NCBI GenBank assembly: GCA_903900335.1
Contig: CAIUMP010000003.1
Coordinates: forward strand, 1 to 46,585
DNA: 46,585 nucleotides
Reading direction: 5' to 3'
Origin: an uncultured Ignavibacteriota bacterium
GTDB lineage: Bacteria; Bacteroidota; Ignavibacteria; Palsa-1295
A program made the position numbers and the translations under genes. Below, in pieces: positions 11,586 to 45,524 of this stretch. The notes under the pieces are model-generated. The model was given only the letters and a program-made list of their open reading frames with translations. It did not search any database and was not told where the DNA came from. How positions within the stretch are numbered: position 1 is the first letter of the stretch; every line of letters starts with the position of its first letter.

Positions 11586-11647
11586 AATGTACCTCTCTCA
11601 AAAGCAACAGCAATCCCCATCCCAAAAATCCCGGCTCCACCACCGCA

Positions 11648-12450: not shown

Positions 12451-12455
12451 CCATC

Positions 12456-12554
12456 GTCTGAACTCTGATTCGTCTGATTAAAGTGATTGGCGCATGATTG
12501 AACCACACCCATCATGAAGCCAATCATTCAAATCATAGAAATCACAGTTCAGAC
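12456..12554. repeat. Large imperfect hairpin downstream of the reverse transcriptase
   Basis: Arms at 12456-12491 and 12519-12554 pair over 36 positions with about eight mismatches. They start GTCTGAACT and end in the perfect inner pair GATTGGC/GCCAATC. The loop holds a second small stem, CATGAT/ATCATG. The arms contain recurring TGATT blocks roughly every 8 bases, like the dispersed GATT-rich hairpins of many Bacteroidota genomes. It lies between the stop of the reverse transcriptase and the start of the 107-residue protein, so it would be in their transcript. Confidence 0.75.
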
Positions 12555-12563
12555 ACTCCCTTA

Positions 12564-12599
12564 CCAAAACACCTCCAACACCCCAAAACCCTGCGCTAC
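12564..12599. repeat. 36-bp direct repeat, copy 2, abutting the RT stop codon
   Basis: This copy matches 11648-11683 at 35 of 36 positions. On the minus strand its first base is the G of the reverse transcriptase's TAG stop codon, followed by TAGCGCAGGG and the G-rich run. It therefore forms the first part of the RT 3' untranslated region, immediately before the large hairpin. Confidence 0.85.
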
Positions 12600-21247: not shown

Positions 21248-21973
21248 TTAATGGCAGATCCCGACTGTTGTTACCTCCGGCCCGGGCGCTCCTGGGCTAA
21301 GGTGCGGTATGCCAAGAGCTAGGCCCCGTAGGAGAAATAGGGATGCGATGACAAGACTGATGGCCGGTGCAGCATATCGGAGCCTCTTACGAACCTGGCA
21401 AGAAATTCGGGAGCCGCCAAGTGCAATAGCGCTCATGAGTGGAACTGTCCCTAATCCAAATCCGAACATAAAGATGGTGCCGGTGAACAGTGAACCGGTG
21501 CCAAGTGAGCCAAGGAGAGCGGCGGACACTAGTCCGCACGGAAGCAATCCGTTCAGAATTCCTATGCCGTAGTGCGTAAGCGCGCCGTGCTGAACTAACA
21601 GCGACGACAAACTGCGCTTGACGGGTGCTACCCAGCGTTCAGCAACCTTGCCGGAGATCAACTGACGATTCCAGACAAGTTGAAGCAAGAGTGCGGCAAT
21701 CATCGCCAATCCCGACACGATCGAAAGGGTCCGGCCGTACCCTGCAATAGCGATCCAACTCCCTCCGAATCCGAGCATAGCCCCGAGTGTGGTATAGGTC
21801 GTGACCCGGCCAAACTGATAGAGCAGTTTCTGGCTTGTCTCTTGCCACGTCAGGTCGGCCACCCGATTGGCACCCCTCGCGCTTGGCAGTGAAATGGCGA
21901 TCGGCCCACACATGCCTGCGCAGTGAAGGCTACCACCAAGGCCAAGTGCCAAACCGGCGAGGAATTCGATCAT
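21248..21973 (-). CDS. SafE/TauE-like (UreH-domain) membrane protein of the cbb3 cluster
   Basis: The 241-residue polytopic membrane protein has about six hydrophobic segments. It starts MIEFLAGLALGLGGSLHCAGMCGPIAISLP and includes YGIGILNGLLPCGLVSAALLGS. Cysteines in the first (HCAGMC) and middle (LPCG) segments match the 'sulfite exporter TauE/SafE' subgroup that accompanies ccoGHIS genes and is thought to handle copper or thiols during oxidase assembly. The ATG at 21973 is used rather than a TTG at 21985. It is the last gene of the cbb3 operon, 27 bp after ccoH. Confidence 0.85.
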   Translation of the reverse strand: MIEFLAGLALGLGGSLHCAGMCGPIAISLPSARGANRVADLTWQETSQKLLYQFGRVTTYTTLGAMLGFGGSWIAIAGYGRTLSIVSGLAMIAALLLQLVWNRQLISGKVAERWVAPVKRSLSSLLVQHGALTHYGIGILNGLLPCGLVSAALLGSLGTGSLFTGTIFMFGFGLGTVPLMSAIALGGSRISCQVRKRLRYAAPAISLVIASLFLLRGLALGIPHLSPGAPGPEVTTVGICH

Positions 21974-22000
21974 TGAGACGTGCAATCGTTGCTGAACCGA

Positions 22001-22447
22001 TTAGAGCGTATCGTCTGTGAACAGTTGATAGGCCTTCTTATTGTAAGACCAGTCTAATGTGACCCTCCAAAGTCCCTTCGAAAGTGGCACCGTAGAAATT
22101 AGCATTTGCCCGCTGGCAGATGTTTTCAATGCGACGGTGCGGTCCTCCCTGTTAGAATTCGGACGATAGAGTGAGACTGTGCCCGTCGCCTCAGCAGCAT
22201 GCTCTGCAGGGATCTGAATAATGAAGACGTTCTCTGCTTTATCCAAAGAGATGGATGCAGCCGCCTTTAATGCATGCGCACGACCAAGAGCAGCCGATGT
22301 CTGATCCTGATCCAAGCTGTGTTGATAGTAGTCCGGTCGCACCAAGTCAACCTCCTTCGTCATGGCATACCCGACCCAACTTAACGTTCCAGCGATGAAC
22401 AGGGTGTACGCAATGACGATTTTCCACCCCCAGTTGATGTGTTTCAT
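22001..22447 (-). CDS. ccoH: FixH/CcoH-family protein
   Basis: The 148-residue protein has one N-terminal membrane helix (WKIVIAYTLFIAGTLSWVGYAM) followed by the conserved VDLVRPDYYQHSLDQDQ and a periplasmic beta domain ending KGLWRVTLDWSYNKKAYQL. This is the FixH/CcoH architecture. The protein helps assemble or stabilise cbb3 oxidase. It is 16 bp after ccoG in the operon. Confidence 0.9.
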   Translation of the reverse strand: MKHINWGWKIVIAYTLFIAGTLSWVGYAMTKEVDLVRPDYYQHSLDQDQTSAALGRAHALKAAASISLDKAENVFIIQIPAEHAAEATGTVSLYRPNSNREDRTVALKTSASGQMLISTVPLSKGLWRVTLDWSYNKKAYQLFTDDTL

Positions 22448-22463: not shown

Positions 22464-23915
22464 CTAAGGCGTTAGCAGTTCAGTAGAGATTTTTTTGACT
22501 GTCTCATTTCCAGATTGCACGCCAATGACTACATGCACTTCGTTCATAGCGTGTGAAGAGTGTTCGTGCTCCTCTTCATGAGTTCTGTGAACAATACGCT
22601 CCGGTATTGTGATGAGGAAGCGCCCTTCGATTCGATGCCCGGCCAATACCGCACTCGGCAATCCAAGGGGCGTAATGATGGCACCGGCTGGTTGCAGTAC
22701 TGACAACTTAAATGGGAGATCCTTCGTCGACTTATTGATGATCGCCACATTATAGAAGTTTGCTGGGCCGTCTGCCGTTGCCGTCCACGTAGTGCCTGGC
22801 GAACGAAGTATGTTGATAGCAAGATTCGAACGAAATGCGAAGAGTCCCGTGGTCGTAAGCAGCAGCACAATCCAAATAGACCCGTACGCACGAACCCGAG
22901 GAGTGAACCAATGGGCTGCTCCGGCAAGAATCGCATTCGCACTCGTGTATCGAATAAGACCCTTCGGAAGGTTTACTCTTTCCATGACATCGTCGCAAGC
23001 ATCAATACAAGCTGTGCATGCGACACATTCCAGTTGAATGCCGTTGCGAATGTCGATCCCTGTGGGGCAAACGGCAACGCATTGATGACAGTCTATGCAG
23101 TGTCCGGACTGCTCATTGACACGAGCATCATCGCGCTTCCATTTCGAACGCTGCTCTCCTCGCTTTTGATCGTAGGTTACAGTAACCGTGTTATCATCGA
23201 CGAGTGCGGACATGAAACGCCCGTATGGACAAACCACAAGGCAGGCTTGCTCTCGGAAGCGTGCGAAAACAAGATAGAATACAACAGTGAATGCGACGAG
23301 TGCGAGGAATAACTCGAAGTGTGCGGAGGGGCCATCCGTAATGTAACCCCGTAACACGTCGCTCGAAACGACATACGCCAAGAAGATATTTGCAATCGCA
23401 AAGGAGATCGTGAAGAAGATGGATTGCTTCAGAATCACTCTCCAGATGCGATCGAAGGTCCAACCACCTCTATCCCGTTCATGCTGTGTTCCGGGGGGCC
23501 CGTCAATCAACCATTCGATCTTTCTGAAGACCATTTCAAGAAAGACCGTCTGCGGACAAAGCCAACCACACCAAATTCGCCCCAGGACCGCCGTGAAGAC
23601 GATGATGGATACGAGTCCGGTGAGAAATAGTACGACGACCAGATAGAAGTCTTCCGGCCAGATCGGGTATCCAAAGAAGACGAATTTCCGCTCAAGGATA
23701 TTCAGCAATAGGAACTGCTCGCCCCCTACCTTTAGAAATGGTGCACCAGCGAGGAAGGCAAGCAGCAGAACCGATACCGCTGAACGCCAGCGATAGAATC
23801 TGCCGCTCGGCTTCTTCGCATAGACCCACTTCCGTTTGCCATCGGCAGCAACGCTTGCTAGTTGTGCACGAAATCGTTCGTGCTCATCGATGACGTCTAG
23901 GTTGAGAATTGCCAT
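22464..23915 (-). CDS. ccoG: cbb3 oxidase accessory protein CcoG (polyferredoxin)
   Basis: A 483-residue membrane protein with several helices and two [4Fe-4S] sites. It contains GRIWCGWLCPQTVFLEM, a motif set HCIDCHQCVAVCPTGIDIR and LECVACTACIDACDDVM, and a C-terminal Ig-like periplasmic domain (PFKLSVLQPAGA). CcoG proteins reduce copper for insertion into cbb3 oxidase. It lies 9 bp after ccoP and 16 bp before ccoH. Confidence 0.94.
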   Translation of the reverse strand: MAILNLDVIDEHERFRAQLASVAADGKRKWVYAKKPSGRFYRWRSAVSVLLLAFLAGAPFLKVGGEQFLLLNILERKFVFFGYPIWPEDFYLVVVLFLTGLVSIIVFTAVLGRIWCGWLCPQTVFLEMVFRKIEWLIDGPPGTQHERDRGGWTFDRIWRVILKQSIFFTISFAIANIFLAYVVSSDVLRGYITDGPSAHFELFLALVAFTVVFYLVFARFREQACLVVCPYGRFMSALVDDNTVTVTYDQKRGEQRSKWKRDDARVNEQSGHCIDCHQCVAVCPTGIDIRNGIQLECVACTACIDACDDVMERVNLPKGLIRYTSANAILAGAAHWFTPRVRAYGSIWIVLLLTTTGLFAFRSNLAINILRSPGTTWTATADGPANFYNVAIINKSTKDLPFKLSVLQPAGAIITPLGLPSAVLAGHRIEGRFLITIPERIVHRTHEEEHEHSSHAMNEVHVVIGVQSGNETVKKISTELLTP

Positions 23916-23924: not shown

Positions 23925-24533
23925 TTAGCTTCCTGCTTCTACCAACACCTCGCGTGCTGGATCGACTGGTTTCGCATTGGGCGGATGTGTTCCGTGTTTG
24001 GAAAACACGTAGGATGCCACGTCAAGCAGTTCGTCATCCGTCAAATGGTTGTTGTTGCCATATGGCAACATTCCCTTTTCTGGATATCCCGTCGTAATGC
24101 TCTTGAGCACATCTTGGAATTTGCCTCCATGTATCCAGTAATCATCGGTCAGATTCGGCCCCACCAGTCCCCCGAGATCTGGGCGGTGGCAGGTAAAGCA
24201 GAGGTTCTTGTTCTGGAAGATCGTCTCTCCGATCTTCAAAGATGCCTCATCCGTCTTCTTCTGCCAGGATGAGAAATCACGTGCTCCTGGCTTAAGTGGC
24301 GTCTTGACATGTGACATCTCAGAACTATACTCTGCAACTTGTCCGCGAGCGCCGAACCAGAGCACATTCCAATCTCCTCCATCCCATACATGGTAGTAGA
24401 ACATGTACAGAACCCCGAGAAGCATCGTGATATAGAAACCATACAGCCACCATTTCGGCAGCGCATTATCGTACTCTTGGATCCCGTCAGCGTCGTGACC
24501 TTCGAGCAATACGTCCTTTTGTTCTTGTGCCAT
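23925..24533 (-). CDS. ccoP: cbb3 oxidase subunit III, single-heme CcoP
   Basis: The 202-residue protein has the CcoP N-terminal domain (GIQEYDNALPKWWLYGFYITMLLGVLYMFYYHVW, one membrane helix). It then has one cytochrome c domain with C112-F-T-C115-H116 and a likely Met ligand in PEKGMLPYGNN. Most CcoP proteins carry two hemes and about 300 residues; this one has one, a reduced form also known in Bacteroidota. It passes electrons to CcoO/CcoN. It is packed 3 bases after ccoQ. Confidence 0.92.
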   Translation of the reverse strand: MAQEQKDVLLEGHDADGIQEYDNALPKWWLYGFYITMLLGVLYMFYYHVWDGGDWNVLWFGARGQVAEYSSEMSHVKTPLKPGARDFSSWQKKTDEASLKIGETIFQNKNLCFTCHRPDLGGLVGPNLTDDYWIHGGKFQDVLKSITTGYPEKGMLPYGNNNHLTDDELLDVASYVFSKHGTHPPNAKPVDPAREVLVEAGS

Positions 24534-24780: not shown

Positions 24781-27021
24781 TCAATTAGTTGGTGCTGGTT
24801 CTTTCTTTATGTCGGTCCCGAGCCGCTGGAGATAGGCGATTAGCGCTACGATCTCTTTGTTGGCGTCGATACCCTTCATGCCCGTCGCCGAGAGGTCTGC
24901 TGCTATTTCCTTTTGCTGCGCTTTGGCATTATCAACAGCATCGAACTCGAAGTCGTAAGGATAGGGAACTCCCAACTTACGGAGCGTGATGATTTTGCCC
25001 TCTGTGTGGGAGAGGTCGAGATCGTCATCGTAAAGCCATGTATAGGCTGGCATGATCGAGTTCGGAGAGGTCGAGCGCGGATCCATCATGTGGCGCCAAT
25101 GCCAGGCACCGGGGTATTTGCCACCGATTCGCGCAAGATCAGGACCCGTTCGCTTTGAGCCCCATAAGAACGGATGATCGTAAACAAACTCACCTGGTTT
25201 CGAGAAGTCACCATAGCGCTCCACTTCACTACGGAATGGACGTATCATTTGCGAGTGGCAATTATTGCAGCCCTCACGTATATAGATATCCCTACCTTCG
25301 ATCTCGAGCGGCGTGTATGGCTTCACGCTCGCAATCGTCGGAACATTCGACTGAATCAAGGCCGTCGGTACGAACTCTATGATTCCGCCAACAAGTATAG
25401 CTCCGAGAGCGTAAAGGCTGAAGCGCACTGGCTTGCCCTCAAGCACGCGGTGCCAGTGCTCCTTGACCTTCGTCTCCCTTACCAATCGATGATTGGTGAC
25501 CTGCACAACCTCATCGCGCAGTAGCGTTCCTGATTTGGCAGTCTTGTACAGGTTGAGCGCACCAAGCAATGTCCCGCTCAGATAGAGTACTCCGCCGATC
25601 GAACGGATTATGTACATCGGAATGATCTGCATGGTGATTTCCAGAAAGTTCGGGTACATGAGCGTACCGTCACCACGGAATTGCTTGAACATCAAGGATT
25701 CTGTGATCCCTGCCCAATACATCGGTATCACGTAGAAGAGCGCTCCAAGTGTCATCAACCAGAAGTGCCAATTCGCCATTTTTAGCGAGAAGAGCTTCGT
25801 CCGATAGATTCGTGGGAGGATATAGTAGAGCATCGCAAACGCAAGCCCGCCATTCCATAGCAACGCCGCAAGGTGTACATGGCCAATAACATAATCCGTG
25901 TAGTGCGTCAGCGCATTGACGTTCTTAAACGACATCATTGGCCCTTCGAAGGTCGCCATGCCATAGGCAGTAATTCCTACGACAAAGAACTTCAAGACGG
26001 GGTCAGTCCGTACCTTATCCCACGCGCCTCGAAGAGTCATGAGTCCGTTGATCATGCCGCCCCACGATGGAGCAATAAGCATGATACTGAATACAGAACC
26101 TAGCGACTGTGCCCAGTCGGGTAGCGCGGTATAGAGCAGGTGATGTGGTCCTGCCCAGATGTAGATGAAAATCAAGGCCCAGAAATGAACGATCGAAAGT
26201 CGGTAGGAGAAGACCGGTCGGTTCGCTGCTTTTGGGACGAAGTAGTACATGACGCCCAGAAATGGAGTAGTCAGGAAGAAGGCCACCGCATTATGACCGT
26301 ACCACCATTGAACCAGCGCATCCTGCACACCCGCGTACATGGAATAGCTCTTGAGGAAGGTTACTGGTAGTTCGAGCGAGTTGACGATGTGCAGCACCGC
26401 AACGGTCAGGAACGTCGCCAGATAGAACCAGATTGCAACGTACATGTGCTTGTCCTTACGACGGAGCACTGTTCCAATCATATTCCATCCGAATACAACC
26501 CAGACGAGTGCGATCGCAATGTCAATCGGCCATTCGAGTTCTGCGTATTCTTTACTCGTGGTAATGCCTAGGGGTAAGGTGATTGCAGCGCTCACAATGA
26601 TAAGCTGCCAGCCCCAGAAGTGGATCTTGCTTAGCAGATCACTGAACATGCGCGCCTTGCACAATCGCTGTAGAGAGTAATAGACACCAAGGAACAGCGC
26701 GTTACCGACGAATGCGAAGATGACGGCATTAGTGTGAAGCGGTCGCAGACGCCCATAGGAAAGGAAGCCGATACCGCCCAGTAAGTTCGGGATGTAGAGT
26801 TTGACTGCAATGATAAGCCCAACCAGCATTCCGACGATTCCCCAGACAACGGTGGCCATCGAAAACCACCGCACGATATTGTTATCGTATGCGACGGTTT
26901 CGAGCCCATTTGTGAGGGAGTCATGCGAATGTGGTGGACTGCCCCCCGGTCGTGGCGAGGGGAATGCTCGATTTTCCATATCGGATGTCATCTCCGATGC
27001 TTGGTTCGTTTCAAGTGCCAT
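24781..27021 (-). CDS. ccoNO: cbb3 cytochrome oxidase, fused CcoN-CcoO
   Basis: A 746-residue fusion of the catalytic subunit CcoN and the cytochrome subunit CcoO. The N-terminal part is a heme-copper oxidase core with RPLHTNAVIFAF (heme b ligand), GHNAVAFFLTTPFLG, IWAGPHHLLYTALP (CuB histidines) and YVIGHVHLAALLWNGG. The C-terminal part has CNNCHSQMIRPFRSEVERYG with the heme c site, then SKRTGPDLARIGG and IMPAY. It reduces O2 to water at low oxygen and pumps protons. The ATG at 27021 is preferred over a TTG at 27045; it overlaps the end of ccoS by 11 bases. Such fusions are frequent in Bacteroidota and relatives. Confidence 0.96.
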   Translation of the reverse strand: MALETNQASEMTSDMENRAFPSPRPGGSPPHSHDSLTNGLETVAYDNNIVRWFSMATVVWGIVGMLVGLIIAVKLYIPNLLGGIGFLSYGRLRPLHTNAVIFAFVGNALFLGVYYSLQRLCKARMFSDLLSKIHFWGWQLIIVSAAITLPLGITTSKEYAELEWPIDIAIALVWVVFGWNMIGTVLRRKDKHMYVAIWFYLATFLTVAVLHIVNSLELPVTFLKSYSMYAGVQDALVQWWYGHNAVAFFLTTPFLGVMYYFVPKAANRPVFSYRLSIVHFWALIFIYIWAGPHHLLYTALPDWAQSLGSVFSIMLIAPSWGGMINGLMTLRGAWDKVRTDPVLKFFVVGITAYGMATFEGPMMSFKNVNALTHYTDYVIGHVHLAALLWNGGLAFAMLYYILPRIYRTKLFSLKMANWHFWLMTLGALFYVIPMYWAGITESLMFKQFRGDGTLMYPNFLEITMQIIPMYIIRSIGGVLYLSGTLLGALNLYKTAKSGTLLRDEVVQVTNHRLVRETKVKEHWHRVLEGKPVRFSLYALGAILVGGIIEFVPTALIQSNVPTIASVKPYTPLEIEGRDIYIREGCNNCHSQMIRPFRSEVERYGDFSKPGEFVYDHPFLWGSKRTGPDLARIGGKYPGAWHWRHMMDPRSTSPNSIMPAYTWLYDDDLDLSHTEGKIITLRKLGVPYPYDFEFDAVDNAKAQQKEIAADLSATGMKGIDANKEIVALIAYLQRLGTDIKKEPAPTN

Positions 27022-27232
27022 GGTTGGTAGTTGAATGGATTTCAATCAAGGATGATATCGGCTTCGCTTGGAAGAGAGTCCGATGCTCACCCGCTTGGTC
27101 GTCAAAAAGAATTCGAATTGCTGGCGTGTGAATGTCGTCGTATTGTCCTGTACCTGTCGCCCAAAGGAATCCGACGAGGAATGCAGCAGCGGCAATCACA
27201 CTCGAAAGAACTAGAAGGATCACAATACTCAC
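27011..27232 (-). CDS. ccoS: cbb3 oxidase assembly protein CcoS
   Basis: The 73-residue protein has one N-terminal membrane helix (VILLVLSSVIAAAAFLVGFLWAT) followed by GTGQYDDIHTPAIRILFDD, the CcoS hallmark. It is needed for cofactor insertion into cbb3 oxidase in studied species. Its GTG start overlaps the ccoI stop as GTGA, and its 3' end overlaps ccoNO, showing tight coupling. Confidence 0.92.
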   Translation of the reverse strand: MSIVILLVLSSVIAAAAFLVGFLWATGTGQYDDIHTPAIRILFDDQAGEHRTLFQAKPISSLIEIHSTTNHGT

Positions 27233-29811
27233 GGTTCTCTCCTCCCTCTGCTACTTGCGATGCCCGTTGGAAGAAGGCGAATCAGCCTACGCGCCCCGCC
27301 AACACTTATTGCAATGACGGTCAGTGAGCTTATCGGCATTAAGATCGCTGCAATCATGGGTGACAGTAATCCCATGATCGCAAGCGTGAGCCCCAGGGCG
27401 TTATAAAAAACCGAGAAGCCGAGGCTCACCAGTATGACTCGCTTCATCGCGGCAGCGTATCGTAAAAGCCCGGGAAGCGAGGGCAAAGAATCCGCACGCA
27501 TGATGACATCACATGCAGGAACGAGCGTTGCAGTGTCGTCAGTAATAGCGATTGCCACATTCGCTTCCCCCATCGCTCCTGCATCGTTGAGTCCATCACC
27601 AACCATGAGGATGGCATGCCCCGCCGCTCGCTGCCCAGCAATGTGACGAGACTTGGACTCCGGCAAGCAACCGAAGGTCATCCGATCACTACCAAAATAT
27701 GGCTCAAAAAGCACCGCTGCTGAAATAGAATCGGTTTCGCTTCGATCGGAATCACCAGAGATGAGTGCCAGAGAGAATTTTTGCTTCAGTGTTGAAAGCA
27801 TATTCCCAATTCCACTGCGTAGGGCTGGTTTGGATGCGAAGTTTCCAACATATTCGCCATCTATCGCGACCGCCGTTGAGGACGTAGTCGTCACGGGGAT
27901 GCCTACTTGCTCCTTTATGAAGGATGATGAGCCAATAAGGATCCGATGTCCCGATACGTGGCCCTCTATTCCCCGACCTGCCTCTTCACGAATAAAATCA
28001 ACCTCGGCCACTGGTGCCTGGATCAGTGTGCTATGTTTAAATAGTTCGCTAGCGATGGCCCTGCTGATCGGATGAGTGCTATGGGAGGCAACTAGCCGAA
28101 TCGCCTCGCTCTCTTCCGAGGTTAGATTTCGTTGAGCTTGGAAGAAGATCGTGTTCTTGGGAGAGGTCAAGGTGCCGGTCTTGTCAAAAACTATCGTATC
28201 AATTCTACTAAGCTCAAGCAGAATACCCATATTCTTTAGGTATATGCCCACGCTTCCTAAACGACCCATCGCGCTTCCCAGTGTTATAGGAGCGGCAAGC
28301 GTCAGTGCACAGGGACAAGCGATGATGAGCACCGCCGTGAAAATATTGAAGGCCTTCCCCCAGTCTGGCAGCCATACAACGGCTCCGGCAACCGCGACAG
28401 CAATGGCAAAACCTGTGAACCATTGCCCAAATCGGTCGCTGACAGAAGTGTAATGCGAGATCGAGGAAGATTCGTCAGATGCAGATGTGGACGCCGCGCT
28501 CTGGCTTCTCCCCCACATTCCGGCTAGTTCACTGTGTGAGACATCCTTTGTTGCGATCAACTTAACTGCCCTTCCCATGACCTTACCACCCGCGTAGACG
28601 ATGGATCCCCTGAGAGACTCCACCGGGAGAGACTCCCCTGTCACGAAACTATAGTCAATGTAACCTATCTCACTATCGAATACGCTATCGCAGGGTACTA
28701 CTTCACCGTGCCTAACCGAGAGCACATCCCCAATTTTCACGCGTTCGATCGGAATGACTTCAAACGTTTCCGAATCGGGATGCTCATTCGACCTTCGTTG
28801 AACCCTTACAGACAGTGGGAAGAACGAGCGGTAGGTACGATCGAACGAAAGTGCGTCGAAGGCCTTTTGCTGAAAGAGCCTTCCGATGAGAAGGAAGAAC
28901 ACGAGTCCATTGAAGGAATCCAGATAACCTTCACCGTGTCCGCTAACAATATCGAAAACGCTCCGTGAGAAGAGCACTGCTATTCCCAAAGCGACAGGTA
29001 CGTCAAGATTGATTCTCCTTCCTCGGAGTGCTGCTCGCGCCCCAACGAACCATGGCGACGCGCCATAGAACAGAACTGGGACAGACAATGCGACGGAGAG
29101 CGTCCTGAAGACCATCATCAGGGGCCGCTCAAACCCTCCACTGCCAGCGAAGTACTGGGCAATGTACATCATCATCGTGTTGCCAGCAGCAAAGCCTGCA
29201 ATTCCGATACGCGCATACAGCCCACGTGTGGACTCATGCTTCACAGGCATATCACCCTCCAAGTGGAGCATCGGCGCATACCCGATGGATGCGAGCCGTT
29301 CCGCGATCTTTCGAAGGGAAGTAATTCGCGAATCGAAATCGAGTGTGACCGTCTTCCGCATGATATCGACTGTCGCTGCCAACACGCCGTTCTCCAATCG
29401 ATCAAAACGTTCGATTAGCCACACGCAGGAGGCGCAATGCATAGTGGGGATGGTCCAAACAACTCGAGACAATGTGGCGCTTGAGAACGCAAGCAACGTG
29501 TGACCTATCTCGGGATCATCCAGAACTTTGAACTCATCCTCTCGCAGCTCTTTCCGCCTCATGTTCACACCCACGAATGGAGCGGTTTGGAGATTCTCGC
29601 CTCTCTCGTAGTACTCACACAGCCCGTGCTGCGAAAGGATTTCGAACACGGCCTGACACCCGACGCAGCAAAACACGTTGTCGGCATTCCGAATGGCACC
29701 CGCACTCAAAGCATCTCCCCGCTGATCCACGGGCTCACCACAGTGGGCACAGGTGGGAACGGCAGGAGTGCCGGTGATATTACCAGGTGACTGTAGGGTA
29801 GTTTCTTGCAT
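27229..29811 (-). CDS. ccoI: Copper-transporting P-type ATPase CcoI/FixI
   Basis: The 860-residue P1B-type ATPase supplies copper for cbb3 oxidase. It has an N-terminal cysteine-rich domain (C21-x2-C24 and C48-C49-x2-C52), a heavy-metal-associated domain with C126-A-S-C129, and the membrane metal site C499-P-C501. The phosphorylation site is D543 in DKTGTLT, the phosphatase loop is TGES (391-394), and MVGDGLNDAGAM forms the hinge. It is the first gene of the cbb3 operon. Confidence 0.95.
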   Translation of the reverse strand: MQETTLQSPGNITGTPAVPTCAHCGEPVDQRGDALSAGAIRNADNVFCCVGCQAVFEILSQHGLCEYYERGENLQTAPFVGVNMRRKELREDEFKVLDDPEIGHTLLAFSSATLSRVVWTIPTMHCASCVWLIERFDRLENGVLAATVDIMRKTVTLDFDSRITSLRKIAERLASIGYAPMLHLEGDMPVKHESTRGLYARIGIAGFAAGNTMMMYIAQYFAGSGGFERPLMMVFRTLSVALSVPVLFYGASPWFVGARAALRGRRINLDVPVALGIAVLFSRSVFDIVSGHGEGYLDSFNGLVFFLLIGRLFQQKAFDALSFDRTYRSFFPLSVRVQRRSNEHPDSETFEVIPIERVKIGDVLSVRHGEVVPCDSVFDSEIGYIDYSFVTGESLPVESLRGSIVYAGGKVMGRAVKLIATKDVSHSELAGMWGRSQSAASTSASDESSSISHYTSVSDRFGQWFTGFAIAVAVAGAVVWLPDWGKAFNIFTAVLIIACPCALTLAAPITLGSAMGRLGSVGIYLKNMGILLELSRIDTIVFDKTGTLTSPKNTIFFQAQRNLTSEESEAIRLVASHSTHPISRAIASELFKHSTLIQAPVAEVDFIREEAGRGIEGHVSGHRILIGSSSFIKEQVGIPVTTTSSTAVAIDGEYVGNFASKPALRSGIGNMLSTLKQKFSLALISGDSDRSETDSISAAVLFEPYFGSDRMTFGCLPESKSRHIAGQRAAGHAILMVGDGLNDAGAMGEANVAIAITDDTATLVPACDVIMRADSLPSLPGLLRYAAAMKRVILVSLGFSVFYNALGLTLAIMGLLSPMIAAILMPISSLTVIAISVGGARRLIRLLPTGIASSRGRREP

Positions 29812-30496: not shown

Positions 30497-30928
30497 CTAC
30501 GGCTTGTAAGTCGGACTCAGGGTACGGACAAATGCGATCGCCTGAGCGATCTGTTCTTCAGTGAGTTGTGGTTGTCCAGGCATTGTAGGATACCCAAATG
30601 CTGCACCACCATTCTTCACAACATCGTGGATGTGGCGGTTGGTGAGCTTATCCATATAGGCACCGTTAGAATGGTCGCGCGGCTTTGGATTCAGCGCAAC
30701 GGAAGCTGGGCCATCACCCTTGCCTCGTGGTCCGTGACACGGTGCACAGGTATGCTGGTACAAGCTGTCACCCTTGACGATGTTGTCTGGTGTCATCGCA
30801 ACATCGAACGGAGTTTCGGCCGCTGCGGGTTTGTTGGTATCGTCGCTGTTCAGCTTCTCATCTTTCCCGCATGAAGCAACGGCGATAATCAGAAAGAGCC
30901 CGAGGATAACACGCAAAAGTGTGTTCAT
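30497..30928 (-). CDS. Monoheme cytochrome c lipoprotein
   Basis: A 143-residue lipoprotein starting MNTLLRVILGLFLIIAVASC, with the lipidated Cys at 20. The heme site is C61-A-P-C64-H65 in a class I cytochrome c domain, with a likely Met ligand in GYPTMPGQPQ. The frame extends upstream to an ATG at 30970 but only the internal ATG yields a leader. It probably carries electrons in the periplasm, plausibly toward the cbb3 oxidase. It is 160 bp downstream of the diheme cytochrome gene. Confidence 0.87.
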   Translation of the reverse strand: MNTLLRVILGLFLIIAVASCGKDEKLNSDDTNKPAAAETPFDVAMTPDNIVKGDSLYQHTCAPCHGPRGKGDGPASVALNPKPRDHSNGAYMDKLTNRHIHDVVKNGGAAFGYPTMPGQPQLTEEQIAQAIAFVRTLSPTYKP

Positions 30929-31088
30929 TTTGTTTTGAGTTTCGAAATAAATGCAAAAACGTCGGGTCATAGGAAATTGCGCGAATCGGATAAACGCATT
31001 ACCCCGTTACCTCTGAAAGCACGTTGACCATGCAGAAGTGCTACTGAAAAAGCTGCATTCCGCAGGTTAGCTCCAGCTCGAATCATCC

Positions 31089-31928
31089 TCATTTCGAGCC
31101 GTGTGCCATCAGGATACTATCCGCGCCCGCGCCATCCATGTACTGGTCCGTGTTCTGCAGGGACCAAACATAATTTGCCAAGTGCCAACGATCCGTTTCA
31201 CTCAGCGTCTGTGCGTAGGATGGCATCGGCGTACCGTTGAGACCGGTTGAAAAGATCCGAAAGATATCCAGCGCACTTCGACCGAATTTAAAGTTTGATA
31301 GATTCGTCAGATCGGTAGGCATGATCTGATTCCCAAAATCGTCAACGTGAGTTCCCGCGGCAGGCCCATCGCCTTGGCCTCGAATGCCATGACAATTCGC
31401 ACACTGCATTTGCAAATAGAGTGTTCTTCCCTTCGCGAGGCTTTGCGGCGATGGCAGTACTTCCGCCCCCACGTTCAGGACATCAAGTGGGTATTCCGTG
31501 GAATCCGCGAATCGCGATGAGAACATCTTGATATACTGTACGATTGACCAGCGATCCCCAGGTGCCATCGCCTTGAAAGGAGGCATTGCGGTGTTGTGGA
31601 TGCCCGATGTGATTGTGCGATATAAGTCGTAATCTGTCGGGAGCTGGCCGCTTGCCGTCGAACGGTTCAGGTAGATTCCACGGCGTAGGTCGCGTGGAGA
31701 ATTTCGAAGGTTGACTTCGATCGGCCCATTGCCGGAGCCGTCCGCACCGTGGCACGGCGAGCAGGAAATGTTGAACATTAGCTTGCCACGTTCGAGCGTT
31801 GCGTTCGAAGTCGGCGCGCTCGTCATGGCGACTGGATCAGTGCCCAGAGTTGCAGCTCCGTTACTTGAAGCAATAGTAAAGCCCACGAGACCAAGCGCGG
31901 CGACGACTGTTAGTGATTGTAAGTACAT
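31089..31928 (-). CDS. Periplasmic diheme cytochrome c
   Basis: The 279-residue exported protein starts at the ATG at 31928, preceded by AAGGAG at good spacing; the longer frame has no leader. Two tandem cytochrome c domains carry C56-S-P-C59-H60 and C176-A-N-C179-H180, with likely Met ligands in TAMPPFKAM and TPMPSYAQ. It would move electrons through the periplasm. It follows the fused cytochrome-barrel gene by 16 bases and is likely cotranscribed with it. Confidence 0.88.
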   Translation of the reverse strand: MYLQSLTVVAALGLVGFTIASSNGAATLGTDPVAMTSAPTSNATLERGKLMFNISCSPCHGADGSGNGPIEVNLRNSPRDLRRGIYLNRSTASGQLPTDYDLYRTITSGIHNTAMPPFKAMAPGDRWSIVQYIKMFSSRFADSTEYPLDVLNVGAEVLPSPQSLAKGRTLYLQMQCANCHGIRGQGDGPAAGTHVDDFGNQIMPTDLTNLSNFKFGRSALDIFRIFSTGLNGTPMPSYAQTLSETDRWHLANYVWSLQNTDQYMDGAGADSILMAHGSK

Positions 31929-31944
31929 AGTGTTCTCCTTGAGC

Positions 31945-33171
31945 TTAAAATCCGAACAGAATTCCTGCGCCAAAAGTAGTAGTTGTCTTATCAACGCCAG
32001 CGGGTGGCTGAGTTTCCATTAGCGTCGTGTAGACACCGGTGAGTACGACGTTCGGCAGTAGATGATAGTGGAACCCCACGTCGATCTGATGCTGATTGTC
32101 GCTGACCTCCTTCTGGTTCATCCAGTCGTAACGTCCATATAGATAGAACTTCTCGGGAACAATGATGACGTTGAGTCCAGCGAAGCCCCCGACCATTGTG
32201 TAGGCACCCCCAGCTGTATCCACTTTATCGTCCTTGCCAATTGAGTACTCTCCGAAGAGATCAAATCGCTTTGTCCATGGATCATAGATCTCCGCATCCA
32301 CTCCTGCTCTAGTTACTCGGTTCGACCAGGGTGTTGCAGACATACTTGTGTCAGTGATGTCCTGTACTCCGGTGTAATAGAATCCTCCGAAACGCATCGG
32401 CGCGTTATTAATATAAACCGTCTGATCGAGCGAGCCGAAAACCGCTCGTGCCGTATTGAGATCGATATCGCTCTTCGTCCCACCAGTCGCCCCCACTTCC
32501 CAGCGTAGTCCTTCGCTGATAGCGTACAGGGTACCGTAAGCTGAGACTCCAAAGGTAGGGTCAGCTGCCGCAAACAGGTCGTTGGCTGTCTTCCCGGCTA
32601 ACGGATCATACGTGTCAACCAGCGGATCAGCGCCAGTCAGTAGAACATTCTTCAAGAATCCTGAAAAGATCCTGAATTTGCCAAGCCGAAAATTCAGTGA
32701 ACCCGTGCCATCGTTAAGCACATCCGAGTAGATCAAATGCGCTGCCTCTACTTCGATCGAAGTGGAGCCATTCGCAATGATGATCGGCACCGCGGCGAAA
32801 TAGGAAAAGTGAGAACCCAACGAAGCTGAACTGAAGAGCCCTACTTCGATCCCAGAAAAGGTATTCTGAATTCCGAATGTGGTGTCGAGGATATTGTCAT
32901 GAGTCTGCGTATGCAGAACCATCGGCGTAGCAAGAATCCCCAGAGCAGCGGTGGGCTGATCGGCCTGGGCAAATTTCTCACTTGTGCCTGGCAATTGGAA
33001 TCCATTCGCTTGAAAACGCCGACCAAACTCATTCAATAGCGGTTCCGTCGTGTGACACGTAAAGCACGTCGTGTTGTACTTTCGCGCGAACAGAGGAATC
33101 GCGTGTGATTCCGAGACGAGACAACTAAGGAAGACAACGACAAGTAGAAAGGCGACAGCTAGTTTCTTCAT
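31945..33171 (-). CDS. Fused monoheme cytochrome/outer-membrane barrel, Cyc2-like
   Basis: The 408-residue protein has a signal peptide (cleavage after SHA, residue 24), then directly IPLFARKYNTTCFTCH with one heme site (C36-x2-C39-H40) and LLNEFGRRFQANGF. The remaining 350 residues are transmembrane-strand-like and end in a barrel-type phenylalanine (FGAGILFGF). This is the architecture of Cyc2, the outer-membrane iron oxidase, in which a small cytochrome plugs a porin. Other fused cytochrome-porins share the plan, so iron oxidation is a hypothesis. Its ATG overlaps the upstream cupredoxin stop (ATGA), and the diheme cytochrome follows. No second heme is present. Confidence 0.75.
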   Translation of the reverse strand: MKKLAVAFLLVVVFLSCLVSESHAIPLFARKYNTTCFTCHTTEPLLNEFGRRFQANGFQLPGTSEKFAQADQPTAALGILATPMVLHTQTHDNILDTTFGIQNTFSGIEVGLFSSASLGSHFSYFAAVPIIIANGSTSIEVEAAHLIYSDVLNDGTGSLNFRLGKFRIFSGFLKNVLLTGADPLVDTYDPLAGKTANDLFAAADPTFGVSAYGTLYAISEGLRWEVGATGGTKSDIDLNTARAVFGSLDQTVYINNAPMRFGGFYYTGVQDITDTSMSATPWSNRVTRAGVDAEIYDPWTKRFDLFGEYSIGKDDKVDTAGGAYTMVGGFAGLNVIIVPEKFYLYGRYDWMNQKEVSDNQHQIDVGFHYHLLPNVVLTGVYTTLMETQPPAGVDKTTTTFGAGILFGF

Positions 33172-33974
33172 TTCAATTCAAAGTCTGTTATTGCTCCTCC
33201 CCCTGCAGGGACTGTTACCTGGTGTTGTTCGACGATTGCTCCAGAAAAGACTGGACGACCGCCCGGCTGTGTATCTACCGTCTTCCATCCTTCATGCCAC
33301 ATAACAACGGTGTACGTTCCGGGCGGGAGACCATCGATTGAATAGGATCCATCCGCCTTCGTGACGGCCGCGTACGGATTGTCTGTTACCCAGATCCACG
33401 AAGACATCCATGTATGACCAGCATCGCACTCAACATTAACCATTCCGGCCTTCCGCAGTTGCTGATCCGATGATTGGTCCTTGGTCGGCTGTGCGAAGTT
33501 GAACGCCGTGGAGCGGTCGTTGCCTATAAAGTAGTATCCATGCACATTGTGAAGGACTGGATCCTTATTAACGAACGTGACCGAAGCTCCGCGAGAAGCG
33601 ATCGCCATGTGCGGGGTGTAGCCGCAATCCACTTGAGTAATAGTCGGCGCGGGGAAATTTGCTTTGCCAGCGGGTGGATTCGCAATATATACCAACGTGT
33701 ATTCGACTCCGCCATTTTTTCCAACTACCAGTCTGTCGTAGGAATGCGTCTTTCCACACACTTCAGGGGAGATACACTTGGCGCGGTCAAGTTTCGGAGC
33801 AGCACCCGAAAAGCGAACGCTGCCTGTTATCGAAGCCCCCGCTGCAGGTGCTTTCTGGCTCTGCGGTATCAGCAAGAATCCAAAGCTGGTGACCGCACAG
33901 AGAAGTATTAAGAATGCGAGATCACTCTTCGAAATAAAGGGCTCTCGGAGCCGTGCATCTGTTACTTTCATCAT
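33168..33974 (-). CDS. Membrane-anchored cupredoxin-like copper protein
   Basis: The 268-residue protein has one N-terminal membrane segment (about 18-36) and a periplasmic cupredoxin-like domain. Type 1 copper ligands are likely H142 or H145 in PVLHNVHGYYF, C183, H187 and M190 in VECDAGHTWM. A C-terminal carboxypeptidase-regulatory-like beta domain follows (KADGSYSIDGLPPGTYTVVMWHEGW). The ATG at 33974 has AAGGAGAG upstream. It heads the cytochrome cluster and is coupled to the Cyc2-like gene by a 4-base overlap, which suggests it exchanges electrons with that protein or the diheme cytochrome. Confidence 0.8.
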   Translation of the reverse strand: MMKVTDARLREPFISKSDLAFLILLCAVTSFGFLLIPQSQKAPAAGASITGSVRFSGAAPKLDRAKCISPEVCGKTHSYDRLVVGKNGGVEYTLVYIANPPAGKANFPAPTITQVDCGYTPHMAIASRGASVTFVNKDPVLHNVHGYYFIGNDRSTAFNFAQPTKDQSSDQQLRKAGMVNVECDAGHTWMSSWIWVTDNPYAAVTKADGSYSIDGLPPGTYTVVMWHEGWKTVDTQPGGRPVFSGAIVEQHQVTVPAGGGAITDFELK

Positions 33975-34278: not shown

Positions 34279-35472
34279 ATGACAATTCCGAAAACGCCGG
34301 CACCTCGCACCGCCACCCCACCAGATCCCTATCTCATCTTTTTCCCCCTTGGCATCGTGTTAGGATTTGCTGGAGTCATTGTATGGCCCTTGTTCTACCT
34401 GGGATTCACGGATGGATTTTGGGGTCTGTCCCATGCCTTTATCCAATCTAACGGATTCTTGTTCTGCTTCATTGCTGGGTTTCTTCTGACAGCTGTACCC
34501 AAATTCACAGGCACTGAGGCACCAACGCTTTCGTCCCAGATCTCACTGGCTACCTTCATTACGATAGGAGCTATCGCCTTCGAACTTCAATCCTACGCGG
34601 TTGGCCAAACCGCTTTCCTCGTTTCTTACACAATGCTTTTCGTCTTGCTGCTTCAGCGCTACCTCCGACGACACGGAGCGCTTCCCGTGACATTCTCCCT
34701 CGTTGGAATTGCACTCCTCACTGGAATGCTTGGCACCATCATCAACGCGCTCGCCGCATTCGAAGTGCTGCACTCCGGCTGGATCACCGCGGGCAAACGC
34801 TCCCTAACCGAAGGAATGACCCTCATGCTCGTCCTGGGTGTTGGCGGCTTCCTCGGACCTCGACTGCTCGGCTTCGACCGACTACCCGTAGTCCAGATCG
34901 CGGGTGTGGCCGGGCCGAAAGGCAGGCTCCTACCGGAGTCGCCTCGCTACCTCTTTATCATTGCCGGAGTGACTCTCCTGTTTTCGATTGCCTTCGAATA
35001 CGGGCTCGGAGTCACCTGGATGCCATTTCTCCGAGCCATCGTCGCCACGGTAGTCATTGCCGCCACGATGGAGCCCTGGAAATTCCCGCTCGTCCGATCT
35101 ACCCTCTCCTGGTGTGTCTGGACCGCCAACTGGCTCCTCATCTTTGGCCTATGGCTCGCAGCATTCCTGCCAATCTATCGTGTGGACATGATGCATATTA
35201 CCTTCATCGGAGGCTTTTCCCTACTTATTCTTGCCGTTGGCATGAGGGTCACCCTTTCCCATGGAGGACACGGGCTTACCGCCGAACTCAAGAACTGGCC
35301 ACTCCGAGTGGGACTCATCACTGGCACGATCGCAATGCTCGCCCGAGTAGGGGCACCTTTCTCTCCGGAAAGCACAGCCCGCCACCTGATTTACGCAGCA
35401 ACCCTCTGGATGATCGGGCTCGGATTCTGGGGTTGGAGAATATTCCGGCTCATCACCTCACGCCGGAAATAG
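34279..35472 (+). CDS. nnrS: NnrS-family membrane protein
   Basis: A 397-residue protein with about twelve hydrophobic segments. It carries NnrS family features: FFPLGIVLGFAGVIVWPLFYLG, HAFIQSNGFLFCFIAGFLLTAVPKFTG and HITFIGGFSLLILAVGMRVTLSHGGHG. NnrS proteins are heme/copper membrane proteins that lessen nitric-oxide stress. It is divergent from the cupredoxin-cytochrome operon and shares its control region, hinting at coregulation with respiration. Confidence 0.88.
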   Translation: MTIPKTPAPRTATPPDPYLIFFPLGIVLGFAGVIVWPLFYLGFTDGFWGLSHAFIQSNGFLFCFIAGFLLTAVPKFTGTEAPTLSSQISLATFITIGAIAFELQSYAVGQTAFLVSYTMLFVLLLQRYLRRHGALPVTFSLVGIALLTGMLGTIINALAAFEVLHSGWITAGKRSLTEGMTLMLVLGVGGFLGPRLLGFDRLPVVQIAGVAGPKGRLLPESPRYLFIIAGVTLLFSIAFEYGLGVTWMPFLRAIVATVVIAATMEPWKFPLVRSTLSWCVWTANWLLIFGLWLAAFLPIYRVDMMHITFIGGFSLLILAVGMRVTLSHGGHGLTAELKNWPLRVGLITGTIAMLARVGAPFSPESTARHLIYAATLWMIGLGFWGWRIFRLITSRRK

Positions 35473-35664: not shown

Positions 35665-35689
35665 GTAGGTCGGGCAGCCCTGCCCCTAC
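35665..35689. repeat. GTAG...CTAC repeat overlapping a stop codon
   Basis: An imperfect palindrome beginning GTAGGTCGGGCAG and ending CTGCCCCTAC. Its right arm contains the TAG stop (35686-35688) of the T9SS-cargo gene. It belongs to the same general type as the repeat at the groES stop. Confidence 0.75.
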
Positions 35690-36351
35690 TTGACCACCTC
35701 GAACTTCACCACACGGCGAAGTGCAGCATTCTGGAACTGCGCATAGTAGGTGCCGCAAGGCAGCTTAGAGCAATCCAACGACGCGCAGAGGCCGATGTCC
35801 CCGGATGGGGTAGCATCGTAGAGCGTGGTGATCTTCTCGCCCTTCGCGCTCACAACATCTACGACCACCGGCACGCCATCCGGCAACTCCTCCACGCAGA
35901 TGTGAGCGATTCCCGTGACGGGGTTCGGGTGGACGGTGAGGGTAATACCCTTCTGCGCAGTGTTCACAGCGGACGTGACACGCGGAGCGGCGGAGCTGGG
36001 CTGCTGGATGGTAAAGAACGTGCGCGAGAAAGCGGTACCACGCGCCGGGTCGCTTGAAACCAGCTTGACCCGGAATTTCTGCCCCTCAAGATAGGAAGGT
36101 ACTACCCATGACAGGTGTCCCTCTTCTGCGGGCACGTTGGAGAAGATAGTACTCCACTTGCCCTTACCGCCGTCCCAAAGGGAGAGTGAAAGCATGCCTT
36201 TCGCGAGGTGGGTATCCCAAGATATTTCCTTTCTTGTACCGGCTTGAATCACTTCACCTCCGATTGGTGAAGTGATGACTGTTTGGGAACTCGCTGAAGC
36301 CGCGAAAATTAAAACAATTGTTATGGTGGCAGTCTGACGCAGAATGTTCAT
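35686..36351 (-). CDS. Small T9SS-cargo protein with Kre9/Knh1-like domain
   Basis: The 221-residue secreted protein has a signal peptide ending near SASSQ. An N-terminal beta domain (SPIGGEVIQAGTRKEISWD ... FFTIQQP) resembles the Ser-Thr-rich GPI-anchored/Kre9-like domain. The C terminus is a type A T9SS sorting domain: LTVHPNPVTGIAHI, VVVDVVSAKGEKI and YYAQFQNAALRRVVKFEVVK. It is therefore likely exported by the type IX system, though no T9SS machinery genes are in the window. Its stop lies inside a palindromic repeat. Confidence 0.85.
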   Translation of the reverse strand: MNILRQTATITIVLIFAASASSQTVITSPIGGEVIQAGTRKEISWDTHLAKGMLSLSLWDGGKGKWSTIFSNVPAEEGHLSWVVPSYLEGQKFRVKLVSSDPARGTAFSRTFFTIQQPSSAAPRVTSAVNTAQKGITLTVHPNPVTGIAHICVEELPDGVPVVVDVVSAKGEKITTLYDATPSGDIGLCASLDCSKLPCGTYYAQFQNAALRRVVKFEVVK

Positions 36352-36368
36352 AGTTTAGTTAGAAAAAA

Positions 36369-36791
36369 TTATTTTGAAATCAGACCAGGATAAGGTATGC
36401 TCCCACTTCTCAAAAAATCAGCAAAAATTGCAGCATTTCGAAGCCCAGGATGTGCGTATGGGAGTTCAAATCCGGGCCCATAAAAGACAGTCACGAGAAT
36501 ACTATCTCTGCTATGAATGGCGGTCAACGCATACCCATTGCCTCCACAAAAGAAGCATGGTTGCTCTGTAGCAATTAGACTATCGCTGTCGATCACCACG
36601 GGGTACCGAGAGTAGCGCGCGATGAATAAGTGCGCACGGGACCACAGCGTATCAAATTGATCAAGGGGTGTTGATATCGTGTTGCCTGCGTTAATAACTC
36701 CAGTTAGGTATTTCCGCTCCAAATGATTTGGCACACCGCAAGACGTGAGCAATATCGACAATAGGCAGAAGTTAATTAGTCTCTTGAGCAT
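36369..36791 (-). CDS. Small lipoprotein of unknown function
   Basis: A 140-residue lipoprotein with the lipobox LLTSC after a short leader (MLKRLINFCLLSILLTSC). The ATG at 36791 is used; the GTG at 36800 only adds three residues. A CFFCGG motif in the middle could bind a metal or form a disulfide. I do not recognise the family. It lies 10 bases after the 1081-residue gene and may be cotranscribed with it. Confidence 0.7.
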   Translation of the reverse strand: MLKRLINFCLLSILLTSCGVPNHLERKYLTGVINAGNTISTPLDQFDTLWSRAHLFIARYSRYPVVIDSDSLIATEQPCFFCGGNGYALTAIHSRDSILVTVFYGPGFELPYAHPGLRNAAIFADFLRSGSIPYPGLISK

Positions 36792-36801
36792 GTAGCGCAC
36801 G

Positions 36802-39800
36802 TCAGTTCGTATCTACTCGCAGGTGCCCTTTCAAGGTACCATAATCTCCTGCTCCATATGGGGTAGCCCAGTCTGGGTCCTGTATGTGACCTTCAATCCC
36901 ATCGTCATTATGGCGGTAACCCCAAAAGTCAAGTTTGCCAACCCCAGTCCATTCTAAGTTGCCAACATAACGGAGATAACCCCAAGTAATCCGATGAAGA
37001 TCGTAGTCGCTCAGAACACCTGCGGCAAGCAAGATTGCCTGCAATGATAACCGTGCACCAGTGATTTGCGGCATCTGAAAGACTTTTCCATTTGCTAATC
37101 GAATCCAGCCCCATTTTGCATCGCCATAACCCTCTAATGTGAGAAGGGAGTATACTTCCGTTAAAAAGGTGAAAAAAGAATGCCAATTACCGATTCCACC
37201 ACCGCCCGCCCACCCGTCCAAATGTCCACCTATAACGCCGTCATCCGCAATCTTCGCCTGTGAAAAAAGGGTCGTATTTGTGGAGGTGCTGGCATCACAG
37301 TCAGCGGCTTCGAAGTTGTCGTGATCATCAATTGGATTAGTATTCCAAGTTGGGATATGGACGGAATCAAATATTACCCGATTTTGAGTTGAATAGCACA
37401 TTGTGCCACTGATGCAAAAATCGTTCAAATTCCGCGAACTTATCCCTAACCAATCCCATAGACCGTCATCACAAATGCCGAAGGGCCAGAACCATTCGAG
37501 TGTCCAAGTGACATCCGGGTTTTCAGATGAGAAATTGAGAGCAGCCGGATTCGCTAACTCTTCACCATTAGCACCCCTAATTGTTTGATCCAAGCCGACG
37601 TAAAGGTTAGCATCCTGTCCCTTCCAAAGAGGTATGTAAGTGTCCCCCAACGTAACCTTAACGGTTTGCGAGTCGATGGTAGCGACTGAAGGCACTTCGC
37701 GGCCAATGCAATACGATCCTGCAAAATTCCGGGACGCTTCGAATGAAATAGCATGGTTTCCTATCGTTTTGATGGGTCTGTCGAAGTGCAGCCTCAGATT
37801 CAGCGGGGTTGTCTTCTCCCACGCATCTCCCATACAAAGATTATTCTGTCTGTCTCCCCATGAATTAACAGGAATTCTCACGTCCTGCACTGTCCCGTTC
37901 CTCCACTGCTTCATCATAATAGCGTCCAATCGAGGCCCACTTGAAAAAACTGCACACGCGTGCTTATCCTCAGTCATCGACATCGTTAAGCTAGGAGTGC
38001 TGCTTGCTGTGTACGTGCTTCCCGTGGCCCAGTGGTTGAACCTGTATCCGTTTGTTCCTCCGCACGTCAGTGCGACGTCAGCATCGCAGTCGTACGTTAT
38101 CACGTATGAAACCTTATTCGGAGGAGACCAGCTGGAACTGGCAATCTCGCACTTGGCCCCAAATGTTGACAACCTGCACCACATCCGATCACTCGCCGTT
38201 GTGCTTGTAAGCAGAGTACCCGCAGGCATCTCATTCCGATCCATTACGAGGTCAACGATCAACGTCCGTTTAAGCTTAGCAAGCTTAAATGTAACATACA
38301 AGGGTGGGGATGTTGTCATAAGGGGCAATTCCGGTGGGGTGAAAGTACCATCGCCTCCGGCTGCAAAGAGATCTTTTACATGTCCTTTCGTAGCGGGGTA
38401 GTATTTGTGCTCTCCGATCTGGTACCATTCAAGCCCGTATCTACTGTCGAGAATATGCACAGTAGCGCTGTATAGACCCGGACCAGGCGTCGGGTTCATA
38501 TTGATAACGCCCGTTGGATCAGGAAGCAACTCTGCCGCGTTGCTCCATGGCCATGTCACACCATCAATTATCATCTCAGGAATTGCAGAAGTGTAGGGTG
38601 GCATTGGTGGTTTGGGGCCGAAAACCGCATATGCCCACTGATTTCCTGACAGTTGAAGTTCGGCATCAGGGCACACCGAGCCGTCCACGTTCGGATCAGA
38701 GGAACTCCAATTAGAAAAGGTCAGCGTCGATGAAAACGCATGTAAAGTTACGAACTTGTCTCGCTCCACAAGATAGCGGCAAGTATCGCCACAGGTGTCA
38801 AGCAGAGGAGCGTGACAGTCCATCGCACCACTTTCCACTTGTAGATATGCGCCCAGTGAGCTCCCAACTGCCGTAACCCCAACCTTCAACGTATCAAACG
38901 GCGCAGGGCCATAAAGAGCGGTAGCTGTAACATCTCGCAACTGATCTGGGCTCAATGAAACAAAAATATTGGAGTCTGTCGAGTTATTAATCGCCACAAT
39001 CCCTGGGCAACTCCATCTCTTGAATACCGCGCAACCCACCCTTCCCGGGGCGCGAAACTCCGCCGTGTCGAATGCATTGATGATCTTTCCGAGGGCATTT
39101 GTGTCAATGATCACAGTGCTATCATTTATCAGAAGTGGCTCTTCGTTGATATTTGGATCGAAGTGGATGGTGGGAAGTGTTGCAAGTCCATCAGTAGCGG
39201 CGGCCAGTACGTTGAGCCTATAGCTCTTGCGAACGGAGAAGCCGAAGGTTCGGTCCTGAGAAGAATCACCGGTCAATCCACTCAGAATTATCTTCGCGTC
39301 ATATTTCCTACCAAGTTCGAATGTGACAGCTGGCAAAGCATGCAGTACCGAACTGTCGGCCACGTCAAGCCAAGCTACGGTTGGAATGATACTGTCGGTA
39401 GCGACCAGCGTATCGTAGGCGCTGTCGTAAGTAACACTGGGTCTAGTGAGGGAAAGCAGAGGACCAGCCGAAGTATTTGTGCTATCAAGCTTACTTGTGA
39501 ATCGTGCCGTCAACGTATCATGAAGGTGAATCCAGCCTCCCGAATCAATGAAAGACAAATCGAACAGCTTTGGGGGAAGGGCTACAGTCGTGAAGGTCTG
39601 CCGCGCGACTGTGTCCGAAACCTGCAGCGTATCTCCCATTGAATCGACACGAAGCCCAATTAGAATTGCTTCAAATTTTTGTCCGTTCGGCAACGGTTCT
39701 GGATGAAACTCAAAGGTTGTGTCATCGATAATATTCCCAGTTCCGTTCGCAGCAAATACCTGCCAGGAAGTGTCACCGAATCCAGTGTATATCTCATATG

Positions 39801-40047: not shown

Positions 40048-40137
40048 TTTTTAGGGTTCAATCATCTAACCCCACAGTATAGAAACGCAAAAAGTTCTCC
40101 CGGTTACAAAAATTCATGGAGAATTTTGGCGGCGTCG

Positions 40138-45357: not shown

Positions 45358-45524
45358 GAAAAGACACAAAGATTTAGTTGACCTCTTCTAATGTTCTGCC
45401 TTTCAAAATAATGCCCGAGCACGGCCCCGCTCCACAGTGGATCCGTCCAGAACCCAACACTTTAGACGGTTCGACAATCCTGACTACTAAACCTGACGGC
45501 AACACAGCGCGTATATTTGCGACA

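Follow-up and report, generated by a model that had tools for sequence, protein, structure and literature searches.

Cyc2 of Mariprofundus ferrooxydans PV-1 and Acidithiobacillus ferrooxidans, and Cyt572 of Leptospirillum, are monoheme cytochromes of ~400 residues fused to a 16-strand porin. In each, a signal peptide is followed by the motif AXPXFAR[QK][TY], a CXXCH heme site and a PXL, and periplasmic carriers lead on to a terminal oxidase. The published definition of Cyc2 asks for AXPXFAR[QK][TY], CXXCH, PXL, a length of at least 365 residues and a fused porin (PMC8406198); blastp similarity (1E-5) to a representative of one of its clusters is a further criterion of that study. In the rus operon of A. 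ferrooxidans, Cyc2 is encoded together with the copper protein rusticyanin, the cytochrome Cyc1 and an aa3 oxidase. A diheme cytochrome of another setting, kustc0457 of Kuenenia stuttgartiensis, serves as redox partner to HAOr, the HAO-like nitrite reductase of anammox (PMC12485887, PMC6423088). We describe here a block of four genes from an uncultured member of the Ignavibacteriota, of the Kapabacteria group, found in a stretch of 46,585 nucleotides (contig CAIUMP010000003.1 of assembly GCA_903900335.1, referred to as the window), that encodes a cupredoxin, a cytochrome-porin, a diheme cytochrome c and a cytochrome c lipoprotein. The cytochrome-porin has the same succession of elements as Cyc2 and Cyt572 and, as in the rus operon, the genes of a cytochrome-porin, copper protein and diheme cytochrome lie near those of an oxidase.

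We conclude, with a probability of roughly 0.6, that the block codes for a module transferring electrons inward, a port through which they would enter the cell; the direction is suggested by the high-potential types to which the partner proteins belong. An earlier reading of the window, made from the sequence only, had known of no description of such a route in this lineage. This stands for Kapabacteria, for which the literature searched gave no description of Cyc2 (which is no proof of novelty), one paper mentioning the class in its taxonomy only (PMC9342728). It has to be qualified for Ignavibacteriales, since FeGenie iron-oxidation genes, dominantly Cyc2 at those sites, have been reported in members of that group from deep-mine fluids (PMC8478452).

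The four-gene block and its conservation

The four genes are real: their open reading frames, starts and overlap on the minus strand were verified in the sequence (Table 1), and the cupredoxin and cytochrome-porin genes share the ATGA noticed in the sequence-only reading, at 33168–33171. The cupredoxin gene has the ribosome-binding site AAGGAG and encodes 268 residues with a hydrophobic anchor at the N terminus. The diheme gene probably starts at ATG 31928, which is preceded by AAGGAG and lies 16 nt past the stop of the barrel gene, rather than at TTG 31994 as in the mechanical open reading frame. Similarly, the probable start of the lipoprotein gene is ATG 30928 (mechanical start 30970), which yields the lipobox MNTLLRVILGLFLIIAVASC in a protein with one CXXCH. 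Scans for promoters and terminators gave matches at chance level only. We dropped a CRP/FNR-like box (TTG-N10-CAA) located 86 bp ahead of the cupredoxin gene, as it is not conserved upstream of the orthologs.

The cytochrome-porin has a match in 11 of the 13 genomes of the order and is full-length in all seven of the genus. The core of cupredoxin, Cyc2-like and diheme genes is held together in each of these seven, the window's and six others, and the lipoprotein gene then follows in six. A second copy of the core is present in G206, whilst that in G203 retains the Cyc2-like and diheme genes; the core is also found in G199, a genome of the same family. In the window and loci L002, L003 and L004, identity across the four genes is 52–80%.

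The surroundings of the block vary between species. It lies with cbb3 genes in G204 (L061/L076), with NirK, an FGE-like gene and SCO1/SenC in G164 (L059), and with NirK, NosZ, NosD, a homolog of the lipoprotein cytochrome, FixI and cbb3 in G206 (L063/L075). Because the block adjoins NirK and NosZ in these relatives, O2 is to be regarded as one of several likely acceptors. NirK scores above the NCBIfam cut-off in G164, G204 and G206 only; the window's genome gave no NirK at that cut-off, and nitrite reduction by NirK is therefore not claimed for the window's organism. The NirK of G206 (L063:8454–9920, +) has a C-terminal cytochrome c domain with one CXXCH and is thus a fused nitrite reductase. 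A Rieske and cytochrome b-c pair stands at or near the block in five of the seven genus genomes (G164, G202, G203, G204 and G206); the Rieske/cytochrome b complex of the window's genome is encoded elsewhere, not beside the block.

The cytochrome-porin has the plan of Cyc2

The window protein carries AIPLFARKY upstream of its CXXCH, in agreement with AXPXFAR[QK][TY], and its heme region reads CFTCH-TTE-PLL, with a single CXXCH and the PXL four residues downstream. Its 408 residues exceed the 365-residue limit. A putative signal peptide, read from the sequence, ends at SHA; the mature protein probably starts at about residue 25, with IPLFARKYNTTCFTCHTTEPLL directly after, and the C terminus is FGF. 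Neither Pfam nor NCBIfam gave a match for this protein, nor did a sequence search of solved structures, and no relatives were found on viral contigs.

An AlphaFold2 model calculated from five orthologs only was set aside (predicted local distance difference test, pLDDT, 42). A usable barrel was obtained once two paralogs had been added; the resulting seven-sequence model has low confidence values, with a pLDDT of 52, a predicted template modelling score (pTM) of 0.56 and ~15 strands. Its residues ~64–408 match 16-stranded porins with Z about 18–21 (Foldseek, VIA). They include OprP (Z 20.1, root-mean-square deviation 4.3, 290 residues aligned) and OprO (Z 20.0, root-mean-square deviation 4.0, 292 aligned), the structures that were named for Cyc2PV-1 (PMC8406198). 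The Cyc2 plan seen in the sequence-only reading is thus borne out in motif, single heme and porin fold, and the barrel on which it depended is supported by the model and the fold search.

Position among Cyc2-like proteins

The tree had no member with measured iron oxidation. It comprised 11 orthologs, which in the genomes sampled all belong to the window's order, and reference Cyc2-like proteins of untested function encoded on plasmids (from Caballeronia, Methylocystis, Ideonella, Paraburkholderia, Polymorphobacter and Acidithiobacillus). The orthologs form one clade with a support of 100, and the plasmid proteins make up the other together with one group from the window's phylum. Both clades persist after the removal of one very long branch. 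A union of the ortholog clade with the FARQT-type group was not rejected by the approximately unbiased test (p-AU 0.27), which is no proof of union. Judged by its sequence, the cytochrome-porin belongs to a divergent Cyc2-like clade found, in this sample, only in its order. No relatives with a known other function were found.

Other proteins with the Cyc2 motif occur in different company. Second paralogs, of the CYC2B type, adjoin genes for DsrO/DsrP-like quinone oxidoreductases (L062:1392–6257 and L068:4641–9698, +), and others adjoin genes for cytochrome c, Rieske and cytochrome b-c proteins (L058, L059, L061, L068 and L071).

The periplasmic carriers

In the cupredoxin, the putative type-1 copper ligands H142, C183, H187 and M190, a complete His-Cys-His-Met set, are invariant in 11 homologs. 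Profile matches were to the C-terminal cupredoxin domain of a Cu nitrite reductase (9cck) and to amicyanins, and Pfam CarboxypepD_reg was found above cut-off. Throughout the phylum, cupredoxin homologs lie near Cyc2-like genes much more often than chance would give: in a sample of 198 genomes, 25 of 90 cupredoxin genes lie no more than 10 kb from a Cyc2-like gene, against 0.74 pairs expected from uniform placement. This expectation is crude, and related genomes are not independent. In family f20 (L085, L086 and L090), which is presumably Chlorobiaceae, judging by the known groups of the phylum, a cupredoxin homolog and a Cyc2-motif gene are clustered with genes for a Rieske protein, cytochrome b and an 8-heme protein. 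A further Cyc2-like gene of this family, ATPAFSRQTGQSCAACHFQRYPLLNAYGRSFKANGYT (L086:13894–15216, +), lies near a cupredoxin homolog and has SRQT in place of ARQT; its protein forms a very long branch in the tree.

The diheme cytochrome c aligns with chain B of structure 6H5L over 215 residues (E 2e-53), with both heme sites included, and is a full-length homolog. We take 6H5L to be the Kuenenia HAOr complex and its chain B to be kustc0457.

The window's genome also has a nos operon (L105:7921–14557, +, contig C30), with a NosZ 74% identical to that of L063. At its end stands a gene whose product matches the window's cytochrome c lipoprotein at 79%, which suggests that a protein of this type can serve NosZ.

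Neighbouring genes

The sequence-only reading had the block followed by a full cbb3 operon, and Pfam matches confirm a complete set of CcoN, CcoO, CcoP, CcoG, CcoH, CcoI and a DsbD-like protein (Table 1). The gap between the lipoprotein gene and FixI is 685 bp in the window and 93 bp in the sister genome G204. On the other side of the block is the gene of an NnrS protein, a family tied to nitric oxide.

Farther away, a protein with a reverse transcriptase domain (12599–14113, −; Pfam RVT_1) possibly belongs to a group II intron or retroelement. In the stretch 35686–45369 (−), two very large surface-type open reading frames of 1081 and 1743 residues adjoin a gene (35686–36351) whose match to Por_Secre_tail, below cut-off, suggests type IX secreted proteins. 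Elsewhere in the genome (L074, contig C17), a gene for a DmsE/MtrA-type decaheme cytochrome (12931–13959, −) adjoins that of an 812-residue protein without a family match (10479–12917, −), ~9 kb from the Rieske and cytochrome b-c genes of this organism; the pair is a possible second outer-membrane conduit.

Table 1 Positions of the genes of the block and of its neighbours in the window
Gene product	Position	Strand	Characteristics
Membrane-anchored cupredoxin	33168..33974	−	N-terminal anchor; amicyanin/plastocyanin-like type-1 copper domain; C-terminal carboxypeptidase-regulatory-like domain
Cyc2-like outer-membrane cytochrome-porin (CYC2A)	31945..33171	−	408 aa; single CXXCH, residues 36–40; barrel ~64–408
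Periplasmic diheme cytochrome c	31089..31928	−	Two CXXCH; Pfam Cytochrom_C x2; 6H5L chain B homolog
Monoheme cytochrome c lipoprotein	30497..30928	−	Pfam Cytochrom_C; lipobox; CAPCH
FixI/CcoI-type copper-transporting P-type ATPase	27229..29811	−	Pfam E1-E2_ATPase, HMA, ATPase-cat_bd
Fused CcoN-CcoO (cbb3 catalytic and mono-heme subunits)	24781..27045	−	Pfam COX1 and FixO in one open reading frame; one CXXCH
CcoP, short	23925..24533	−	Pfam FixP_N, Cytochrome_CBB3; one CXXCH
CcoG	22464..23915	−	Pfam Fer4_18, FixG_C
CcoH/FixH	22001..22447	−	Pfam FixH
DsbD-like maturation membrane protein	21248..21985	−	Pfam DsbD_2
NnrS family membrane protein	34279..35472	+, divergent from block	Pfam NnrS, E 1e-29

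Proposed mechanism and alternatives

The genes present, their conserved clustering, the motif, the porin fold and the homologies are what we observe; from them we infer where the proteins lie, in which direction electrons run, what donates them and in which order the carriers stand. At the cell surface, the Cyc2-type cytochrome-porin would take up electrons, the leading candidate for their donor being soluble Fe(II), because Fe(II) oxidation is the tested role of Cyc2; on this analogy we rate Fe(II) as the natural donor at somewhat below even odds. The single heme would hand the electrons on in the periplasm to three carriers: the membrane-anchored cupredoxin, the diheme cytochrome and the lipoprotein cytochrome. 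From these they would reach a terminal reductase, here the adjacent cbb3 oxidase (O2) and in sister species also NirK (nitrite) or NosZ (N2O). A Rieske/cytochrome b complex may feed the same carriers from quinol or take electrons uphill. Of the complete route to oxygen proposed earlier, the link to electron-transfer complexes and to terminal oxidases or reductases is upheld; the route itself is drawn from gene context. The fuller proposition, that in Kapabacteria the block is a standardised plug-in module running extracellular electrons, notably those of Fe(II), into whichever reductase lies adjacent (for O2, nitrite or N2O), is rather doubtful and we put it forward as tentative.

Several observations weigh against this mechanism. 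The ortholog clade is divergent, its stem being long at 1.19 changes per column, and has no function-tested member; similarity to the Cyc2-like proteins of named plasmids, a small database, is restricted to the cytochrome segment. Three orthologs (G204, G205 and G206) have FAHKY in place of FARKY and fall outside the published Cyc2 filter. The AlphaFold2 model, with its low pLDDT of 52, is worst in the surroundings of the heme. Because of the 685-bp gap it is uncertain that the block and the cbb3 genes form one operon. The window's genome has no RuBisCO large subunit, so that autotrophic growth with iron through that enzyme is unsupported.

The alternative that survives best keeps the same conduit, inward or bidirectional, and has a natural donor other than iron, such as Mn, humics, reduced sulfur, partner cells or solids. 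The ortholog clade does stand apart from the other Cyc2 proteins sampled, the functions of Cluster 3 were called the most uncertain by the authors of the Cyc2 tree (PMC8406198), and the decaheme cytochrome with its large neighbour may provide a separate conduit in this genome. We nevertheless consider it unlikely, given that the AXPXFARKY-CXXCH-PXL region and the porin fold are conserved as in Cyc2 and that no link to another oxidation pathway was seen.

Alternatively, the porin and cupredoxin might acquire or reduce copper for cbb3, NirK and NosZ. This rival has to be taken seriously, since copper is required by all the neighbouring terminal enzymes, and FixI (window, G204 and G206) and SCO1/SenC (G164 and G206) are encoded nearby. 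It is made improbable by the cupredoxin ligands, which are a full type-1 set of the electron-transfer kind, by the two c-type cytochromes of the block, and by the Chlorobiaceae-like genomes, which place the cupredoxin homolog with Rieske-cytochrome b and multiheme genes, not with copper enzymes. Outward export, in which quinol-derived electrons would pass out through the cytochrome-porin to an acceptor outside the cell, could draw on the Rieske/cytochrome b genes adjacent or near in five of the seven genus genomes and is very improbable, as by established redox ranges the high-potential partners (the cupredoxin and the cytochromes beside cbb3, NirK and NosZ) are ill-suited to the reduction of Fe(III) minerals at neutral pH.

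With its gene-order ties to cbb3, NirK and NosZ, the divergent clade offers a concrete and expressible test case. Cyc2 is used as a genomic marker of iron oxidation, yet much of its diversity is without a tested function. If the window protein oxidises Fe(II), iron oxidation would be joined to the reduction of O2, nitrite and N2O in a lineage of soil and permafrost, and the plug-in module, if true, would amount to an iron-dependent way of life, both aerobic and denitrifying, that is undescribed for Kapabacteria. If it does not, the published Cyc2 motif overcalls iron oxidation.

Comparison with known systems

The Cyc2-like clusters of family f20 share with the block a Cyc2-motif protein and a homologous cupredoxin. 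They differ in having an 8-heme protein and a split cytochrome b, and no cbb3, NirK or NosZ gene was recognised in the stretches fetched. Compared with Cyc2 and Cyt572, the window protein lies in a divergent clade confined, in this sample, to its order, some of its orthologs have FAH, and its role towards a donor is a prediction. The diheme cytochrome differs in setting from kustc0457: it adjoins Cyc2-like genes together with cbb3, NirK or NosZ, not an octaheme HAO-like enzyme. The rus operon has an aa3 oxidase where the window has cbb3; the diheme cytochrome of the window is of the kustc0457-like type, and the cupredoxin of the window, in contrast to rusticyanin, is anchored, amicyanin-like and extended by a carboxypeptidase-regulatory-like domain.

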